A stretch of DNA of 35,803 nucleotides, taken from the IMG/VR virus record IMGVR_UViG_3300045993_001033, positions 1 to 35,803 of that record; one strand, written 5' to 3'. This document shows positions 2,729-26,567 of the stretch, piece by piece (position 1 is the first letter of the stretch; the number at the start of each line of letters is the position of its first letter). The notes under the pieces were generated by a model that saw nothing but the letters and a program-made list of their open reading frames with translations, was not told where the DNA came from and made no database searches. The DNA comes from a virus. Position numbers and translations under genes: made by a program.

Positions 2729-4546
2729 TTAAGCTGCTCCAGCTGCCCAGAGGGAGGTTCTATCCATCAATGCACCAGAAGAGATATTCACTGTCGCGTT
2801 GGATGTAGATACATTATTCACTGGAGAAGGGGCCTGAGGTGACTGGATGATCACGGGTGAAGGTGCAGATGCAATGTCAGCTCTTTGGACGGCCGCTTCC
2901 TTCAATGAATTAACGGAAGATTCAAGTGACTTAGAAGCCTGAATGCGATCCTTGTTGTAGTTTGCAATCAATTCGCGCGTAGAATCATTCTTCGTTGCAG
3001 CTCCTGCCGCAATGTTAATGTCTGAATCCGAGGCGCCTGATTTTGAAAGTTCTTCCTTCGCCTTTGCAACATTACCACCAAACCTTTTAACTGCAGCGTT
3101 GTAATCCTCTAGAACCTTATCGTTGATTACGAGCGCGGGTGTCTTGTCACCCATCATTTTCTTGATGAATGGAGGAATTAAATTTGTGATCCAAGTTCCA
3201 ATCCACTCGCCAACTCTGCGAATATTATCAAATGCTTCATTAACAAATTCCTTCGCGAAATCAACCACCGAGAAATTCTTAAGTGAACGCTTTATCTGGT
3301 CCATACCAAATGCGCCAAGAACTGGAGCGATGACATAGTCCTTGATAAGATCGATCAGCATCGATGGAAGTGATAGCAACCAAGTAAGAGCGCCTTTACC
3401 AGCACCTGCAATTGCCGATACTCCCTGTTCAAGTAGGCCAGCGCCATCGTCGACAGACTTTTTCCAGTCATCAAATGCTGCAGTGACAACATACCAAGCA
3501 GCTTCAATCGGCGCAAAGATCTTACCAATAGCTGATCCTATCACCTTGAATTTGGAGAAGATGGAACCGATTTTCTCAAAAAATGAGAATAGTTTGCCGA
3601 TAACTCCACCAGACTTTGGAGAAAATGCTTCAGCAATCTCAGCAATTGCTTTCATAAAGCCTGATGACTTGAACTCCTTGAATAACGTTTCGATGCCGTT
3701 TCCAAATGCATCTTTGATTTTCTTGCCAACAGCAAAAACTTTATCAAGTTTTAGCATTCTTTTAATTGGCCCAATAAAGTTTTTAATGTCGTTGGCCTCG
3801 CGCTCAAGAGCTAAGGCTTCCATCCTGAGTTCGAGCGCTGCTTTGTTTGCAGCCTCCGCCGCAGCGCCAAGTTTGACGGTTCTTGATTCAGCCCCAAATC
3901 CCTTGCCAACCTTTGTGCTGTTCTCCAACTTTTCTGCCTGCATTTTCAGCACCTTTGCTTTGGTCATTTTCTTCTTTGCAAGTTTGCCGGAGTCCTCAAA
4001 TATTCCAGTTAGAACCCTATCAATCGTTGAAATAGTAATCTTGAAAGCACCAGTAGCAATCTTAAAAGCGCCGACCACTGCCTTCTCGATATCAATACCA
4101 TGCGACTTCATGAGGCCTGAAATAAAGCCAATGCTCAATCCGCCGAGAGCTGCCATAGCACCAGCAAGTGCAGTCGTAAATTCACCAACAACTCTCGTAA
4201 TGAATGGGAGCATTGGAAACAGATCGTGAACGAATCGTCCAAGAGCATCCATGATGCCTGCGAATGGAGAATCGATATGTCTATTTGACATACGTGATTC
4301 CTTCTTCTCTGCTGGCACTGGCTTACGCTTCATCTTATCCATCTCAGCCTCGGCACGCTGAAGATCTGAATCATTCAGTCCCTGAAAGTACTTGGAGAAT
4401 ACACCCTCAAGTCGCATCTGTGATTTCAACTGCATGCCTGCAATCGAACGAAGATCTCCGATTTCATTTCCCAGATCCTGGATGCCAGAATTCTGCTCCT
4501 TAATGGATTCTACTACATCTGAGATTGAATTTGATCTTCCTGCCAT
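2729..4546 (-). CDS. 29: Probable tail tape measure / baseplate hub protein (gp29-like)
   Basis: A 605-residue, Ala-, Lys- and Gly-rich protein with a helical N terminus, a hydrophobic block at about 95-147, long charged helices through the middle and a second set of hydrophobic segments at about 340-430. This is the usual make-up of tail tape measure proteins, which set tail length and are held in the tube. T4 gp29 has 590 residues, so the length fits a T4-size tail. It follows the gp26 gene and its frameshift extension, matching the chaperone-then-tape-measure order of many phages. A late promoter lies 4 nt before ATG. I assign it by length, composition and position, not by clear sequence motifs. 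Confidence 0.7.
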   Translation of the reverse strand: MAGRSNSISDVVESIKEQNSGIQDLGNEIGDLRSIAGMQLKSQMRLEGVFSKYFQGLNDSDLQRAEAEMDKMKRKPVPAEKKESRMSNRHIDSPFAGIMDALGRFVHDLFPMLPFITRVVGEFTTALAGAMAALGGLSIGFISGLMKSHGIDIEKAVVGAFKIATGAFKITISTIDRVLTGIFEDSGKLAKKKMTKAKVLKMQAEKLENSTKVGKGFGAESRTVKLGAAAEAANKAALELRMEALALEREANDIKNFIGPIKRMLKLDKVFAVGKKIKDAFGNGIETLFKEFKSSGFMKAIAEIAEAFSPKSGGVIGKLFSFFEKIGSIFSKFKVIGSAIGKIFAPIEAAWYVVTAAFDDWKKSVDDGAGLLEQGVSAIAGAGKGALTWLLSLPSMLIDLIKDYVIAPVLGAFGMDQIKRSLKNFSVVDFAKEFVNEAFDNIRRVGEWIGTWITNLIPPFIKKMMGDKTPALVINDKVLEDYNAAVKRFGGNVAKAKEELSKSGASDSDINIAAGAATKNDSTRELIANYNKDRIQASKSLESSVNSLKEAAVQRADIASAPSPVIIQSPQAPSPVNNVSTSNATVNISSGALMDRTSLWAAGAA

Positions 4547-4549
4547 GTC

Positions 4550-4732
4550 TTATTTAGCGTTTGCGCGTCGTTCGTTTTCTTCTTTTATGTCCTCAACTGT
4601 CATTGATACGTAAATTTCCCTCTCCCACGGTAACATATTGTCAAGTTCTGTTAGCGAATACTTGTGGCGATAGGTCAGTTCGAAGTTCGTCTTAAAGTGA
4701 TTCGCAAGAGAATCGTGTGAGAGGGCTATTAG
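4550..4732 (-). CDS. Downstream part of gp26, reached by probable -1 ribosomal frameshift
   Basis: This 60-codon frame carries a conserved-looking segment, LDNMLPWEREIYVSMTV, followed by a charged helix. It has no credible start of its own: no ATG or promoter lies near its beginning, and a GTG at 4780 would lie deep inside the gp26 gene. It is in the -1 frame relative to gp26. The gp26 gene ends GAA TCT TTT TTC TAA, which holds the classic slippery heptamer T_TTT_TTC (4738-4732) directly before the stop. Slippage would give a 291-residue gp26 fusion. The next gene is the tape measure, so the order copies the lambda G-GT-H chaperone cassette. A weak hairpin (4714-4699) lies about 17 nt downstream of the slip site. 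Confidence 0.75.
   Translation of the reverse strand, partial: LIALSHDSLANHFKTNFELTYRHKYSLTELDNMLPWEREIYVSMTVEDIKEENERRANAK
4551..4556 (-). promoter_or_regulatory. T4-like late promoter overlapping a stop codon
   Basis: TAAATA lies 4 nt before the tape measure ATG. It overlaps the last sense codon and the TAA stop of the upstream frameshift-extension frame (GCT AAA TAA), so the gene end and the promoter share bases. Confidence 0.7.
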
Positions 4733-5424
4733 AAAAAAGATTCCAGCCCTGTCAGAGTAATCTTGTTCTCTTCGCCACACTTCTCACAGGTAAATGCAAT
4801 GTCATGGGAGATTTTAGGTGCAGCATTGATGAAGTCTTGGATCTTACCCATCTGCTCCTTGTTCATTGATTCGACAAACGCGACCAACTCTGCCTTGGTG
4901 GATTCAGAAGCAGGATAAACCTTGTCGGCATCAAAGATGGACTCGATACAGAGAATGATCATGTCGATTGGTGTAACGTTCTCTGGAAGATTGGTAACGT
5001 CCTTAGTTGTAAGGAACTTCAGGACAACGCCGATGTCATCTGAAAGTTTGATTGTCTTCAGCGCCTCGGCTTCTTTCACGTTCAGAACCTTTACTTCATC
5101 GAGATTGATTTCAATCGGATTCTGCGCAGAACATTTCGTGCACTTGATCTTGAGCTTCGAGTTCTCGCCGACTGACTTAGCACGAAGGCGGAGGAAGATG
5201 TATTCGATATCGAAGACGGTGAGAGAATCAGGATCAACCTTACCGAACGTGCAGTTCGTGATGACCTCCTTGATTGCGTTTGTAATTTGCTTCTGCTCAC
5301 CGGACTCTTGAGCAATGTAGAGAATCTTTTCCTCTTTGACGAGGTAAGGACGGTATTCAATCTTCTTTCCAGAGGATGGAATAGTTGTTTGATACTTTGG
5401 AAACGATAATGTAGGGAGACTCAT
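4729..5424 (-). CDS. 26: Baseplate hub assembly / tail chaperone-like protein gp26
   Basis: A 231-residue protein of the T4 gp26-type baseplate family. The N terminus has the family segment YRPYLVKEEKILYIAQES, followed by an ITNAIKEVITNCTFG helix. It contains two CxxC pairs, Cys95/Cys98 (CTKC) and Cys213/Cys216 (CEKC), which could make a zinc ribbon. T4 gp26 has 208 residues. The gene ends at a -1 frameshift site that would add 60 residues, and the tape measure gene follows, so it may act as a tail-assembly chaperone in the way lambda gpG and gpGT do. The late promoter TAAATA is 5 nt before ATG, and there is no Shine-Dalgarno sequence. Confidence 0.88.
   Translation of the reverse strand: MSLPTLSFPKYQTTIPSSGKKIEYRPYLVKEEKILYIAQESGEQKQITNAIKEVITNCTFGKVDPDSLTVFDIEYIFLRLRAKSVGENSKLKIKCTKCSAQNPIEINLDEVKVLNVKEAEALKTIKLSDDIGVVLKFLTTKDVTNLPENVTPIDMIILCIESIFDADKVYPASESTKAELVAFVESMNKEQMGKIQDFINAAPKISHDIAFTCEKCGEENKITLTGLESFF
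4732..4738 (-). promoter_or_regulatory. Programmed -1 frameshift slippery site T_TTT_TTC
   Basis: On the minus strand the heptamer reads T TTT TTC in the gp26 frame and is followed at once by the TAA stop. Tandem slippage keeps Phe-Phe pairing and enters the open -1 frame that ends at 4550. Confidence 0.75.
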
Positions 5425-5435: not shown

Positions 5436-6134
5436 TCAGATGATCTTGGTGATTCCACTGATGGCGTTCTTGATGCCACTCAATCCGGACTGGAGGGCGT
5501 TCTCAATAACGAAGTCGCGATAGGTAAATGAGACTGTCATGCGAGCAGTGGTGCCGTCAGAGGTGTTGTCAAGTTCAATTGAATTGACGGAGGTTGGGAA
5601 TGCATCAATCAGTTTCACACCATAGACTGGAAGATTCTGAGCATTGAGTTGCTGAATAACAACGTCACGTGCATAGTCCTTGAGGTATGGAGTTCTATAC
5701 TTCGTCATGTTCAGAACAAGATCAAGCCAGCGATCGAACATCTTCTTCATGTAGTAATCGTTGGTGACGTGAAAGGCAAAGGTGATATCTTCCTGGATGA
5801 TTCCATTCGGGATCTTCAGGTTGTTTCTGACCGTCTGATAGTCAAGAGTTGTTACCTCACGGCCTGGCATGGAACATGATTCGCAGAGAATAGCAACGTC
5901 GCGTGGATCGTTGATGAGACTCTTGAGGTTGAAACTGTTACCAGAAAGAAGACCGACAACCTGCGATTGAATGTCAAGGTTAATGAGCGACTGCTCGGGC
6001 GGTGCCATGATGATGGCAAATCTGTTAGGACGTGCAAGACCTTGATGAGTCGAGATTGAAGACTTGAAGGCATCAATGCCAGATGGATTGAGGATTGATG
6101 CAGCCTTTGCGCCAATATTTGAAATGAAGCTCAT
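5436..6134 (-). CDS. Tail tube family protein (gp19/gp54-like)
   Basis: A 232-residue protein with the hallmarks of the T4 tail-tube fold family: ARPNRFAIIMAPP near the N terminus, ILCESCSMPGREVTTLDYQT in the middle, the IQEDITFAFHVTNDYYMKKM strand, and near the C terminus LIDAFPTSVNSIELDN followed by MTVSFTYRDF. T4 gp19 (tube) and gp54 (tube initiator) share this fold. Its place beside gp26 and the tape measure, away from any sheath gene in view, leans towards a hub or tube-initiator role such as gp54, but the main tube protein cannot be excluded. Late promoter 4 nt before ATG. Confidence 0.8.
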   Translation of the reverse strand: MSFISNIGAKAASILNPSGIDAFKSSISTHQGLARPNRFAIIMAPPEQSLINLDIQSQVVGLLSGNSFNLKSLINDPRDVAILCESCSMPGREVTTLDYQTVRNNLKIPNGIIQEDITFAFHVTNDYYMKKMFDRWLDLVLNMTKYRTPYLKDYARDVVIQQLNAQNLPVYGVKLIDAFPTSVNSIELDNTSDGTTARMTVSFTYRDFVIENALQSGLSGIKNAISGITKII

Positions 6135-6138
6135 GTTC

Positions 6139-6144
6139 TATTTA
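6139..6144 (-). promoter_or_regulatory. T4-like late promoter containing the upstream stop codon
   Basis: TAAATA lies 4 nt before ATG 6134. Its first three bases are the TAA stop codon (6142-6144) of the upstream 510-residue protein. Confidence 0.7.
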
Positions 6145-7674
6145 GATGCGGACGTCTGACAGTTTCATTTTATATGGATCAATGTCGCCGAAAAGTATCT
6201 TTCTAACAGCCATGGCATCATCTGAAACGTCTCCTGAGTAGAGGAACTTTCCACCCTGCTTCTTTGCAAACCTGATCACGCGCTGATAGAGCTTGGTGCC
6301 AATTCCCTGCCTCTGATATTTCTTATTGACCTCGAGCCATTCGATGGACAGATCGTTATCACCAGCCTGACGATAGTCTGCATCACGAGCAGGAATAAGG
6401 CGTGCAACGCCTACTTCTTTCCCACCCAATAGCGCTCGAATAACCCATAGATCGTTGCCTTCATCCTCACCCCTTTCTTTGGCTGTAGTGAATGTAAGAC
6501 CTGCAGGTGCGACTGACTCTGACAACTCCTTCATGAGAGGGGCAGCCTTCATTTCAGGAGTAAGATCACGTGCTCTCATTCCACGAGGGAAGAGATGAAC
6601 CTCCATCTTTACCTTTGGACCGTAGAGTTCTTTAAGAGCAGCAGCACGATGTCTTCCATCATGTGAAGTAATCTGCCACGAAGAACGATCCGCGTTCCAT
6701 TCGACGTTGAAGAACGGTTGACCAAATCCTTTACCGCTCTTGATCGCATCCTTCAGAAAGTTTATGGTGATCGCATCCTCCCTTGAACCATCCATTGGAA
6801 TAGCCAATTCAAGGAACTGATCAGGTGTCATCTCCCTTTTGAAGCCGCGATAATCAATTTCCTGGTTATATGGAACTGCACCAACCCCGTCCTTCGCATC
6901 GAACTTTACTGCCTCTGTCATGCTCGATAGCTGTCTAAGCTGTGCGACAGTGATGCCAAGTTTATCTGCGATTGCATGGACCTTGGAGTATGGAGTATCA
7001 GCGGTAACCGTCTTTAGGATCTGCTTCTGTTCTGGTGACATCATGTGAATGATATCCGCGTACCGATCTTTCTTAACGACTACTGGCTTCTTGCCACCAA
7101 CAATTGCCTTCACCTCGTCGTAGGTATTGGTTCTCTTATCGTAGTCGAGCTTATCAGAATATTGTGGGAGTGCATTGTCGAATGCGTATTCTTCCACCTT
7201 CCCACCAAAATATCTAACCACATCAAGCGTGGACTCAAACACCTGATTAGAAAGTTCTGACCATGAATCTTTCCAGATTGAAATGACCTTAGAGACCGTC
7301 CAAATTCTTCCTGTAACTGGAGCAAACTTCTCTCTGATAAAATCACGTGGCGATCCAAATGTTGGGATCTTCAGGGATGGATTCGAAATGAATGTTAGAA
7401 AGTCTTCATATGAACCTGTCACAGCGATATCAGGAAACTTCGAAAGCTGCGTCGCCAATGCCTTTCCCTGGTTGTCTGCTGACCTCTTCGATACTGCATC
7501 ATTGATCAACTTGAGTTGAGCGAAGAGCTCAACGTGGGTGGTGGCGGAGCCGAGGTCGATGAGCTGAAATGTATTCCAACATGCGAAGGTGTGGGCATCG
7601 GCGGCGGTGAACGCCACTGGTTTCTTCGTCTTCGTCAGGTCTGGGTTCTCGAGGAACTGTTTAAAGGTCTTCAT
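6142..7674 (-). CDS. Probable internal head protein with ParB-like and GNAT acetyltransferase domains
   Basis: A 510-residue, three-part protein. Residues 1-12 (MKTFKQFLENPD) resemble the capsid-targeting peptides of T4 internal head proteins such as IPIII (MKTYQEFIAE). Residues about 15-245 form a module found four times in this window: a start like ADAHTFACWNTFQLID, then GRIWTVSKVISIWKDSWSE, MMSPEQKQILK and a helix-turn-helix-like ADKLGITVAQLRQLS. Residues about 255-375 carry a ParB/Srx-like DGRHRAAAL (about 339-347). Residues about 390-500 look like a GNAT acetyltransferase, with EVNKKYQRQGIGTKLY containing the acetyl-CoA-binding QRQGIG. The ATG overlaps the upstream stop (ATGA). I infer delivery with the DNA as a T4 Alt-like effector; this is not shown directly. 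Confidence 0.72.
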   Translation of the reverse strand: MKTFKQFLENPDLTKTKKPVAFTAADAHTFACWNTFQLIDLGSATTHVELFAQLKLINDAVSKRSADNQGKALATQLSKFPDIAVTGSYEDFLTFISNPSLKIPTFGSPRDFIREKFAPVTGRIWTVSKVISIWKDSWSELSNQVFESTLDVVRYFGGKVEEYAFDNALPQYSDKLDYDKRTNTYDEVKAIVGGKKPVVVKKDRYADIIHMMSPEQKQILKTVTADTPYSKVHAIADKLGITVAQLRQLSSMTEAVKFDAKDGVGAVPYNQEIDYRGFKREMTPDQFLELAIPMDGSREDAITINFLKDAIKSGKGFGQPFFNVEWNADRSSWQITSHDGRHRAAALKELYGPKVKMEVHLFPRGMRARDLTPEMKAAPLMKELSESVAPAGLTFTTAKERGEDEGNDLWVIRALLGGKEVGVARLIPARDADYRQAGDNDLSIEWLEVNKKYQRQGIGTKLYQRVIRFAKKQGGKFLYSGDVSDDAMAVRKILFGDIDPYKMKLSDVRI

Positions 7675-26135: not shown

Positions 26136-26567
26136 ATGGCACTCTCTGATTACAATGGCGCAACGGTATCTGGAACAGTGGCACAGAAGCGCCTCTATGC
26201 TGACTTCGACATGATGATGTCAATTCATCCAATCAAGAAGACCCTTTCTCCTCTGAAGGATATTGATGCTGTGAAAGCATCTGTCAAGCACCTTGTTTTA
26301 ACAAACTTCTATGAGAGGCCGTTCCAACCTCAGCTTGGTTCTAACCTTCGCGCTCTTCTATTTGAACAGGCAGATGCTTTCACTGCCATCGCCCTGAAGA
26401 AAGCAATCATCGACGTTCTTATTGAATATGAGCCACGAGTGGATAATATCACCTGCCAGATTTCCGATGACCCAGACAATAACTCATACGTTGTCACGGT
26501 TGGATTCACCGTCATTTCTCTTTCTTCCAATACTGAGGTAACTCTGTCCGTTCAACGCCTCAGATAA
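26136..26567 (+). CDS. 25: Baseplate wedge protein gp25
   Basis: A 143-residue gp25-type wedge protein (T4 gp25 has 132), related to lysozyme-like gpW/gp25 baseplate proteins of all contractile injection systems. The family motifs are AVKASVKHLVLTNFYERPFQ and the near-universal EPR in LIEYEPRVDNI. Two tandem ATG codons exist (26133, 26136); I chose the second because it is 5 nt from TATAAATA, matching other late genes. It starts the second plus-strand baseplate operon, with gp6 next. Confidence 0.92.
   Translation: MALSDYNGATVSGTVAQKRLYADFDMMMSIHPIKKTLSPLKDIDAVKASVKHLVLTNFYERPFQPQLGSNLRALLFEQADAFTAIALKKAIIDVLIEYEPRVDNITCQISDDPDNNSYVVTVGFTVISLSSNTEVTLSVQRLR

Follow-up and report, generated by a model that had tools for sequence, protein, structure and literature searches.

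The window, meaning the whole 35,803-nt stretch of DNA that was analyzed (positions 1 to 35,803 of IMG/VR record IMGVR_UViG_3300045993_001033), contained the following features at and around the gp26 gene.

5436–6134, minus strand: tail-tube family protein, upstream of gp26 (phrog_45, E 4e-35)
4729–5424, minus strand: gp26, short form (TAC-N, G-like), 231 aa (PF12322, phrog_150)
4743–4750, minus strand: weak Shine–Dalgarno-like element AGGGCTGG, upstream of the heptamer (−4.4 kcal/mol)
4732–4738, minus strand: slippery heptamer T_TTT_TTC, read directly in the sequence
4729–4731, minus strand: zero-frame stop TAA, abutting the heptamer
4550–4738, minus strand: −1 frame extension (gp51 C-terminal domain), 62 codons plus stop (phrog_634, E 6.6e-25)
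4714–4725, minus strand: 5′ arm of a predicted long-range stem, CCCUCUCACACG, 6 nt past the heptamer
4618–4629, minus strand: 3′ arm of the same stem, CGUGGGAGAGGG, coding for PWERE (11 of 12 pairs; arms −17.7 kcal/mol)
2729–4546, minus strand: probable tape-measure protein gene, 605 aa, directly downstream (weak phrog_15478 match and position)

The gp26 gene ends in GAA TCT TTT TTC TAA, and reading of the sequence confirmed that the heptamer (4738–4732) directly precedes the stop codon (4731–4729), as a first-pass annotation of this DNA had stated. That annotation gave the −1 frame as open for 60 codons and as ending 4 bases before the tape-measure ATG; the frame is indeed open and adjacent to that gene, but it runs for 62 codons from the heptamer (FFLIALSHDSLANHFKTNFELTYRHKYSLTELDNMLPWEREIYVSMTVEDIKEENERRANAK), and its stop (4552–4550) is separated from the ATG at 4546 by 3 nt. 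Joined to gp26, the extension yields a 291-aa long form (TAC-NC, GT-like). Throughout the 8,644 codons of the listed ORFs of the window, T_TTT_TTN occurs in frame only once, at the gp26 site. The further claim that the −1 frame lacks a start of its own was nearly right: a GTG at 4780 inside gp26 lies in this frame, and the sole purine stretch touches it with zero spacing, but no GTG-like start is kept there in relatives. The first ATG past the heptamer is 34 codons in, beyond most of the conserved region.

Identity of the encoded proteins

Profile searches placed gp26 in the Pfam family T4_baseplate (PF12322; E 8.9e-63, 212 bits against a cut-off of 24.5) and in phrog_150 (E 2.7e-71). The −1 peptide matched phrog_634 (gp51, baseplate hub assembly catalyst; E 6.6e-25) and also the C-terminal end of phrog_150. 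Judged by these matches, the downstream frame is the C-terminal part of a known protein, gp51, and not a new gene; the −1 extension of the lambda-like cassette that the first-pass annotation had seen here belongs to a family annotated as gp51. The 605-aa ORF 3′ of gp26 weakly matched phrog_15478, a tail length tape measure family (E 6.5e-5), and it begins directly downstream of the −1 stop, so that gp26 and its extension occupy the location expected of a chaperone pair.

The AlphaFold2 model of gp26 had a pLDDT of 94.4. A Foldseek comparison of this model with the PDB returned nothing significant; the HK97 chaperone 2ob9 (gp13) ranked 16 with a non-significant E of 1.8 over 53 columns, and its probability of 0.35 was the highest among the 50 matches listed. 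A PDB search by sequence likewise gave no match. gp26 carries two CxxC pairs (C95/C98 and C213/C216; 5142–5131 and 4788–4777, minus strand) that resemble a split zinc ribbon, and the aligned isolates have CPDD at the position of the first pair (C95/C98). Elsewhere in the window, a 510-aa ORF in the tail/neck cluster (6142–7674, minus strand) resembles acetyltransferase family phrog_1249 in its C-terminal part (E 1.5e-5), and a gp25-type baseplate wedge domain (PF04965, 38 bits) is encoded on the plus strand at 26265–26510, far from the gp26 cluster.

Conservation of the slip site and the −1 frame

Two sets of loci were compared with the window. The first (n = 85) comprised 80 loci from a gp26-profile scan of IMG/VR, four isolates and the window itself; the second (n = 129) comprised new distinct loci from two further scans with other queries. 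Together they gave 213 distinct loci with a readable downstream region (window, IMG/VR relatives and isolates). This comparison of gp26 loci, which the first-pass annotation had proposed as a check, revealed an in-frame T_TTT_TTN heptamer in the same register in every locus (85/85 and 129/129). The last base of the heptamer in the first set was C in 43 loci, T in 40 and A in 2, and the zero-frame stop lay 0 or 3 nt past the heptamer in 82 of the 85. Two loci (L001:3001–3034 and L007:3208–3240) have a zero frame that runs 24–27 nt past the heptamer, and both still keep the heptamer and the −1 frame.

Codon choice at the site was fixed as well. In 85/85 loci, T is the last base of the codon that precedes TTT (log10 P about −21 from codon usage, a value that is overstated since the loci are related to each other, for which reason nominal probabilities were not taken as proof), and the first codon of the FF pair is TTT in all first-set loci, compared with 73% TTT elsewhere in gp26. 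Most loci are only 36–53% identical to the window protein and there is no exception among them, so the site is conserved beyond chance.

The −1 frame was open in all 129 second-set loci and stop-free over about 40 codons in 213/213, whereas the other two frames always contained stops. Entropy by −1 codon position across the 213 loci (0.76/0.43/1.36 bits) followed the pattern of a coding frame, and the conserved −1 peptide starts at FF. No ATG, GTG or TTG was present in the −1 frame upstream of the heptamer in 79 of the 85 first-set loci, and in 14 loci of that set the frame opens exactly at the heptamer. A sequencing error as the source of the frame change is excluded by the 213 concordant loci. 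On this comparative evidence, we consider with little reservation that the end of gp26 is a site of programmed −1 ribosomal frameshifting, as had been suggested from the window alone.

Distribution among phages and the two-gene arrangement of T4

The heptamer and the −1 extension were present in phages of Synechococcus, Prochlorococcus, Pelagibacter and Methylophilales, in Stenotrophomonas phages DLP6 and Yut3, Pseudomonas phage Astolliot, Delftia phage phiW-14 and Xanthomonas phage X1, and in Vibrio phages K571 and PVA8 and Aeromonas phages P19 and Ahp1. Three of these phages, PVA8, P19 and Ahp1, are Straboviridae like T4 itself and have the slip site. Every Kyanoviridae-type phage sampled retains it, and so do members of Schizotequatrovirus and Emmerichvirinae within Straboviridae.

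Ackermannviridae-type Vibrio phages YC and D509 contain a related −1 frame after gp26 but no T6 run. At the corresponding positions, GCTTTCATGTAATG (YC, L093:3180–3420) and CACTTTTCAAGTAATG (D509, L094:3090–3310) replace the T6 heptamer, and YC has an MMPW motif; the TAATG overlap in both suggests either re-initiation or a different slip site. The first-pass annotation had named as contrary evidence relatives in which the downstream gene has its own start and the heptamer is missing; there were none among close relatives, and such phages occurred only in T4-type Straboviridae and possibly as YC and D509. In the T4-type phages a full-length gp51 replaces the need to shift, as the following comparison indicates.

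Genes 26 and 51 of T4 lie on opposite strands, and both products match PF12322. T4 gp51 matches phrog_150 over nearly its full length and phrog_634 at its C-terminus, whereas the match of T4 gp26 ends where the shift occurs. Against a profile of the 85 fusions, gp51 of T4, RB43, Aeromonas 31, KARL-1 and phiP4-3 aligned to positions 280–288 of 296, and the matching gp26 proteins (T4, KARL-1 and RB43) ended at 236. In all five of these phages, gp26 lacks T_TTT_TTN (0/5 with the site); T4 gp26 has TTC TTT, retaining FF but not the nucleotides of the slip site. The site is therefore gone where a full-length gp51 gene exists, which is the strongest argument that it serves to make the fusion. Short and long forms with a common N-terminal part would thus arise by frameshift in the window phage and exist as separate paralogs in T4; by their sequences, the same two products are made from two genes in T4 and by slipping in the window phage.

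In a gp26/gp51 tree with long branches, in which the root and the duplication point are not placed, the gp51 proteins grouped together (support 100), as did most gp26 proteins (81). In RB43 (L095:2501–3794), gp51 (247 aa) and gp26 (185 aa) follow one another on a single strand, the arrangement that a duplication would be expected to leave, whereas the T4 pair is divergent.

Candidate stimulatory elements

The binding energy of the 16S 3′ end peaked 13–17 nt upstream of the heptamer (mean −5.9 kcal/mol; ≤ −4 in 81% of loci). This Shine–Dalgarno-like element was stronger than in synonymous shuffles (p 2e-7) and conserved in position among relatives, although that of the window (−4.4 kcal/mol) is weaker than theirs.

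Downstream, averaged pair probabilities indicated that positions 13–24 pair with positions 109–120, counted from the heptamer start, which gives a 12-bp stem with a 6-nt spacer. In an 84-row gapless alignment, the stem was paired in 77% of cells compared with 37–62% for slid versions, and double-sided changes occurred in 68 cells compared with 33.9 ± 7.9 after shuffling (0/500 shuffles). Two of its pairs ranked 2 and 4 among 7,140 column pairs by corrected mutual information. The covariation was replicated in new loci that had played no part in finding the stem (p 2.2e-4 and 0.011, with 0.045 for a third pair; control column pairs were null), and swapping of stem partners between loci weakened the pairing (permutation 0/300). 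The stem core was found in 62/84 first-set and 49/129 second-set loci, i.e. 111/213; it was absent from cyanophage-type loci, which had only a weak local hairpin.

Other tests were less clear. RNAalifold returned no structure on the 84-row alignment, and the probable reason is that the stem is missing from about a quarter of its rows. When simultaneous changes were counted by strict parsimony, the signal was weak (P 0.019 for one pair, the others not significant). Two stem pairs scored strongly in a simulation along the gp26 tree, yet slid control helices reached partial significance as well; this null is therefore too lenient and was not relied on. With tree-based covariation tests thus mixed, we consider it likely that the long-range stem acts as a stimulator, and the site probably has two, the upstream Shine–Dalgarno-like element and the 12-bp stem.

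Alternative explanations

Most annotations imply that gp51 is a separate short gene, expressed by re-initiation or coupling after the gp26 stop. Annotators have placed starts past this stop in many phages, and an ATG overlaps it in Vibrio phages K571, YC and D509. Nevertheless, the lack of any start before the heptamer at 79/85 loci speaks against such a gene, the common first starts lie 30–102 nt past the heptamer, within the conserved domain, and the conserved −1 peptide begins upstream of them, at FF. A separate gene would also leave the invariant heptamer without a reason and does not fit T4 gp51, which is a full-length fusion; we therefore regard it as very improbable. The notion that the T run and FF are conserved for the protein only, with no recoding, can appeal to the conservation of FF in gp26 proteins. 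The codons, however, are fixed as NNT TTT TTN beyond what the amino acids demand, the duplicated gp26 genes have lost the nucleotides (T4 while retaining FF), and the −1 frame is under coding constraint. This reading is already largely refuted and its probability is close to nil.

A shift caused by RNA polymerase slipping on the T run, instead of by the ribosome, would be in keeping with a site made of 6–8 T. A run of six T is short for polymerase slippage, and half or more of the sites consist of T6 followed by C (43/85 in the first set, 108/129 in the second). The fixed T_TTT_TTN register argues in the same direction, as do two features typical of ribosomal frameshifting, namely the Shine–Dalgarno-like element upstream and the stem that covaries at a distance of 6 nt. 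Polymerase slippage accordingly has as slim a chance as a separately started gp51, and a −1 shift of the ribosome is the reading followed below.

Proposed mechanism

As a whole, the locus is very likely a tail assembly chaperone gene that gives two products through a −1 slip, to judge from the comparative data. The majority of ribosomes would terminate at TAA and release the 231-aa gp26. A minority would slip back by one base on T_TTT_TTC, tRNA-Phe re-pairing from TTT/TTC to TTT/TTT, bypass the stop and produce the 291-aa gp26–gp51 fusion. The slip is probably helped by the upstream Shine–Dalgarno-like element and, in the window phage and about half of its relatives, by the 12-bp stem 6 nt past the heptamer. 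By analogy with lambda G/GT, the gp26 part may bind and hold the product of the tape-measure gene that follows directly, while the domain added by the −1 frame may recruit the tail tube or hub protein to it. In T4-type Straboviridae, the paralogous genes 26 and 51 would supply the same products, the short one and the full-length fusion, respectively.

We infer the chaperone role of gp26/gp51 from the family, the gene order and the two-length design. For T4, both proteins are listed among the chaperones of hub assembly, and gp51 is needed but not found in the particle (PMC3004832). The lambda proteins G and GT bind the tape measure, with the tail tube protein being recruited by the −1 encoded part, and the virion contains neither G nor GT (PMC5009743). 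The comparisons support the proposal of the first-pass annotation that gp26 is the T4-lineage counterpart of the G/GT chaperone.

Relation to known systems

The frameshift signal of E. coli dnaX has a three-part layout of Shine–Dalgarno stimulator, heptamer and stem (PMC5009743). The gp26 site resembles it in its probable upstream Shine–Dalgarno-like stimulator, slippery heptamer and downstream stem. In dnaX, however, the heptamer is A_AAA_AAG, the hairpin is compact and local, and the shift gives a shorter product, whereas in the window phage the stem arms lie 84 nt apart and the shift gives a longer one. Lambda G/GT (Xu et al. 2004) shares with the gp26 locus a short chaperone with a −1 long form, the slip occurring where the short gene ends and the tape-measure gene following directly (PMC5009743); by contrast, no resemblance between gp26 and G at the sequence level was found in this analysis, and the window phage uses T_TTT_TTN with a long-range stem and a Shine–Dalgarno-like element. 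T4 gp26 (TAC-N) and gp51 (TAC-NC) belong to the same family and have the same two-length design, gp26 being the short form and gp51 the fusion, but they are encoded by two divergently transcribed genes without a slippery site, whereas the window phage has one gene and a frameshift. In Pseudomonas phage Adele and other Vandenendeviridae, a similar comparison of loci had revealed a poly-T slip motif that is conserved ahead of the tape measure, together with an open −1 frame; these phages are of another family, their motif is GTTTTT, and the available text of the report describes no long-range stem (PMC12846349).

The first-pass annotation had regarded gp26 as a T4-type setting without a described frameshift; this did not hold, as T4-like chaperones and poly-T slip signals are already in the literature (PMC10885494, PMC12846349). 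Vladimirov, Gautam & Davidson 2022 (doi 10.1016/j.virol.2021.11.003) is cited as having identified tail assembly chaperone genes in T4-like phages. According to PMC10885494, that work found that some T4-like phages have a short gene and a longer fusion gene instead of frameshifting, and a 2025 paper (PMC12846349) credits it with poly-T slip signals in T4-like phages. To judge from these citing papers, it was already known what gp26/gp51 are, and a poly-T slip in the lineage had at least been suggested. In our literature search, which covered Vladimirov et al. 2022 through papers citing it, no description was found of how widely the site is conserved, of the upstream element or of the long-range stem.

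Implications

The −1 peptide of S-CAM9 matched 541 phage records. In those opened, the extension is listed as a separate gp51 with a start past the slip site, labelled a hypothetical protein or left out, and none contains a joined CDS across the slip site: the annotated gp51 of P-HM2 has only about 30 codons and starts past the site, and in ACG-2014b and S-BM3 the extension is an unannotated gap. Database annotation of the −1 peptide therefore needs correcting in such cases. The long-range stem, in turn, is a directly testable candidate stimulator.

The window phage, a marine-type T4 relative, almost certainly makes two versions of a tail helper from one gene by a one-base slip. We lean slightly toward a history in which the frameshift is ancestral in the T4 lineage, the long-range stem drives it in one large clade with arms that also encode ALSH and PWERE, and genes 26 and 51 of T4 are a later split form; if so, part of the protein conservation of ALSH/PWERE would be RNA conservation. 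A 2016 review presented T4 as an exception to the conserved G/GT frameshift of other long-tailed phages (PMC5009743); in the light of the loci compared here, the exception seems to have arisen locally, within part of Straboviridae only, and T4 gp51, which has long been described as a catalyst without a known function, would gain a role as the long chaperone.
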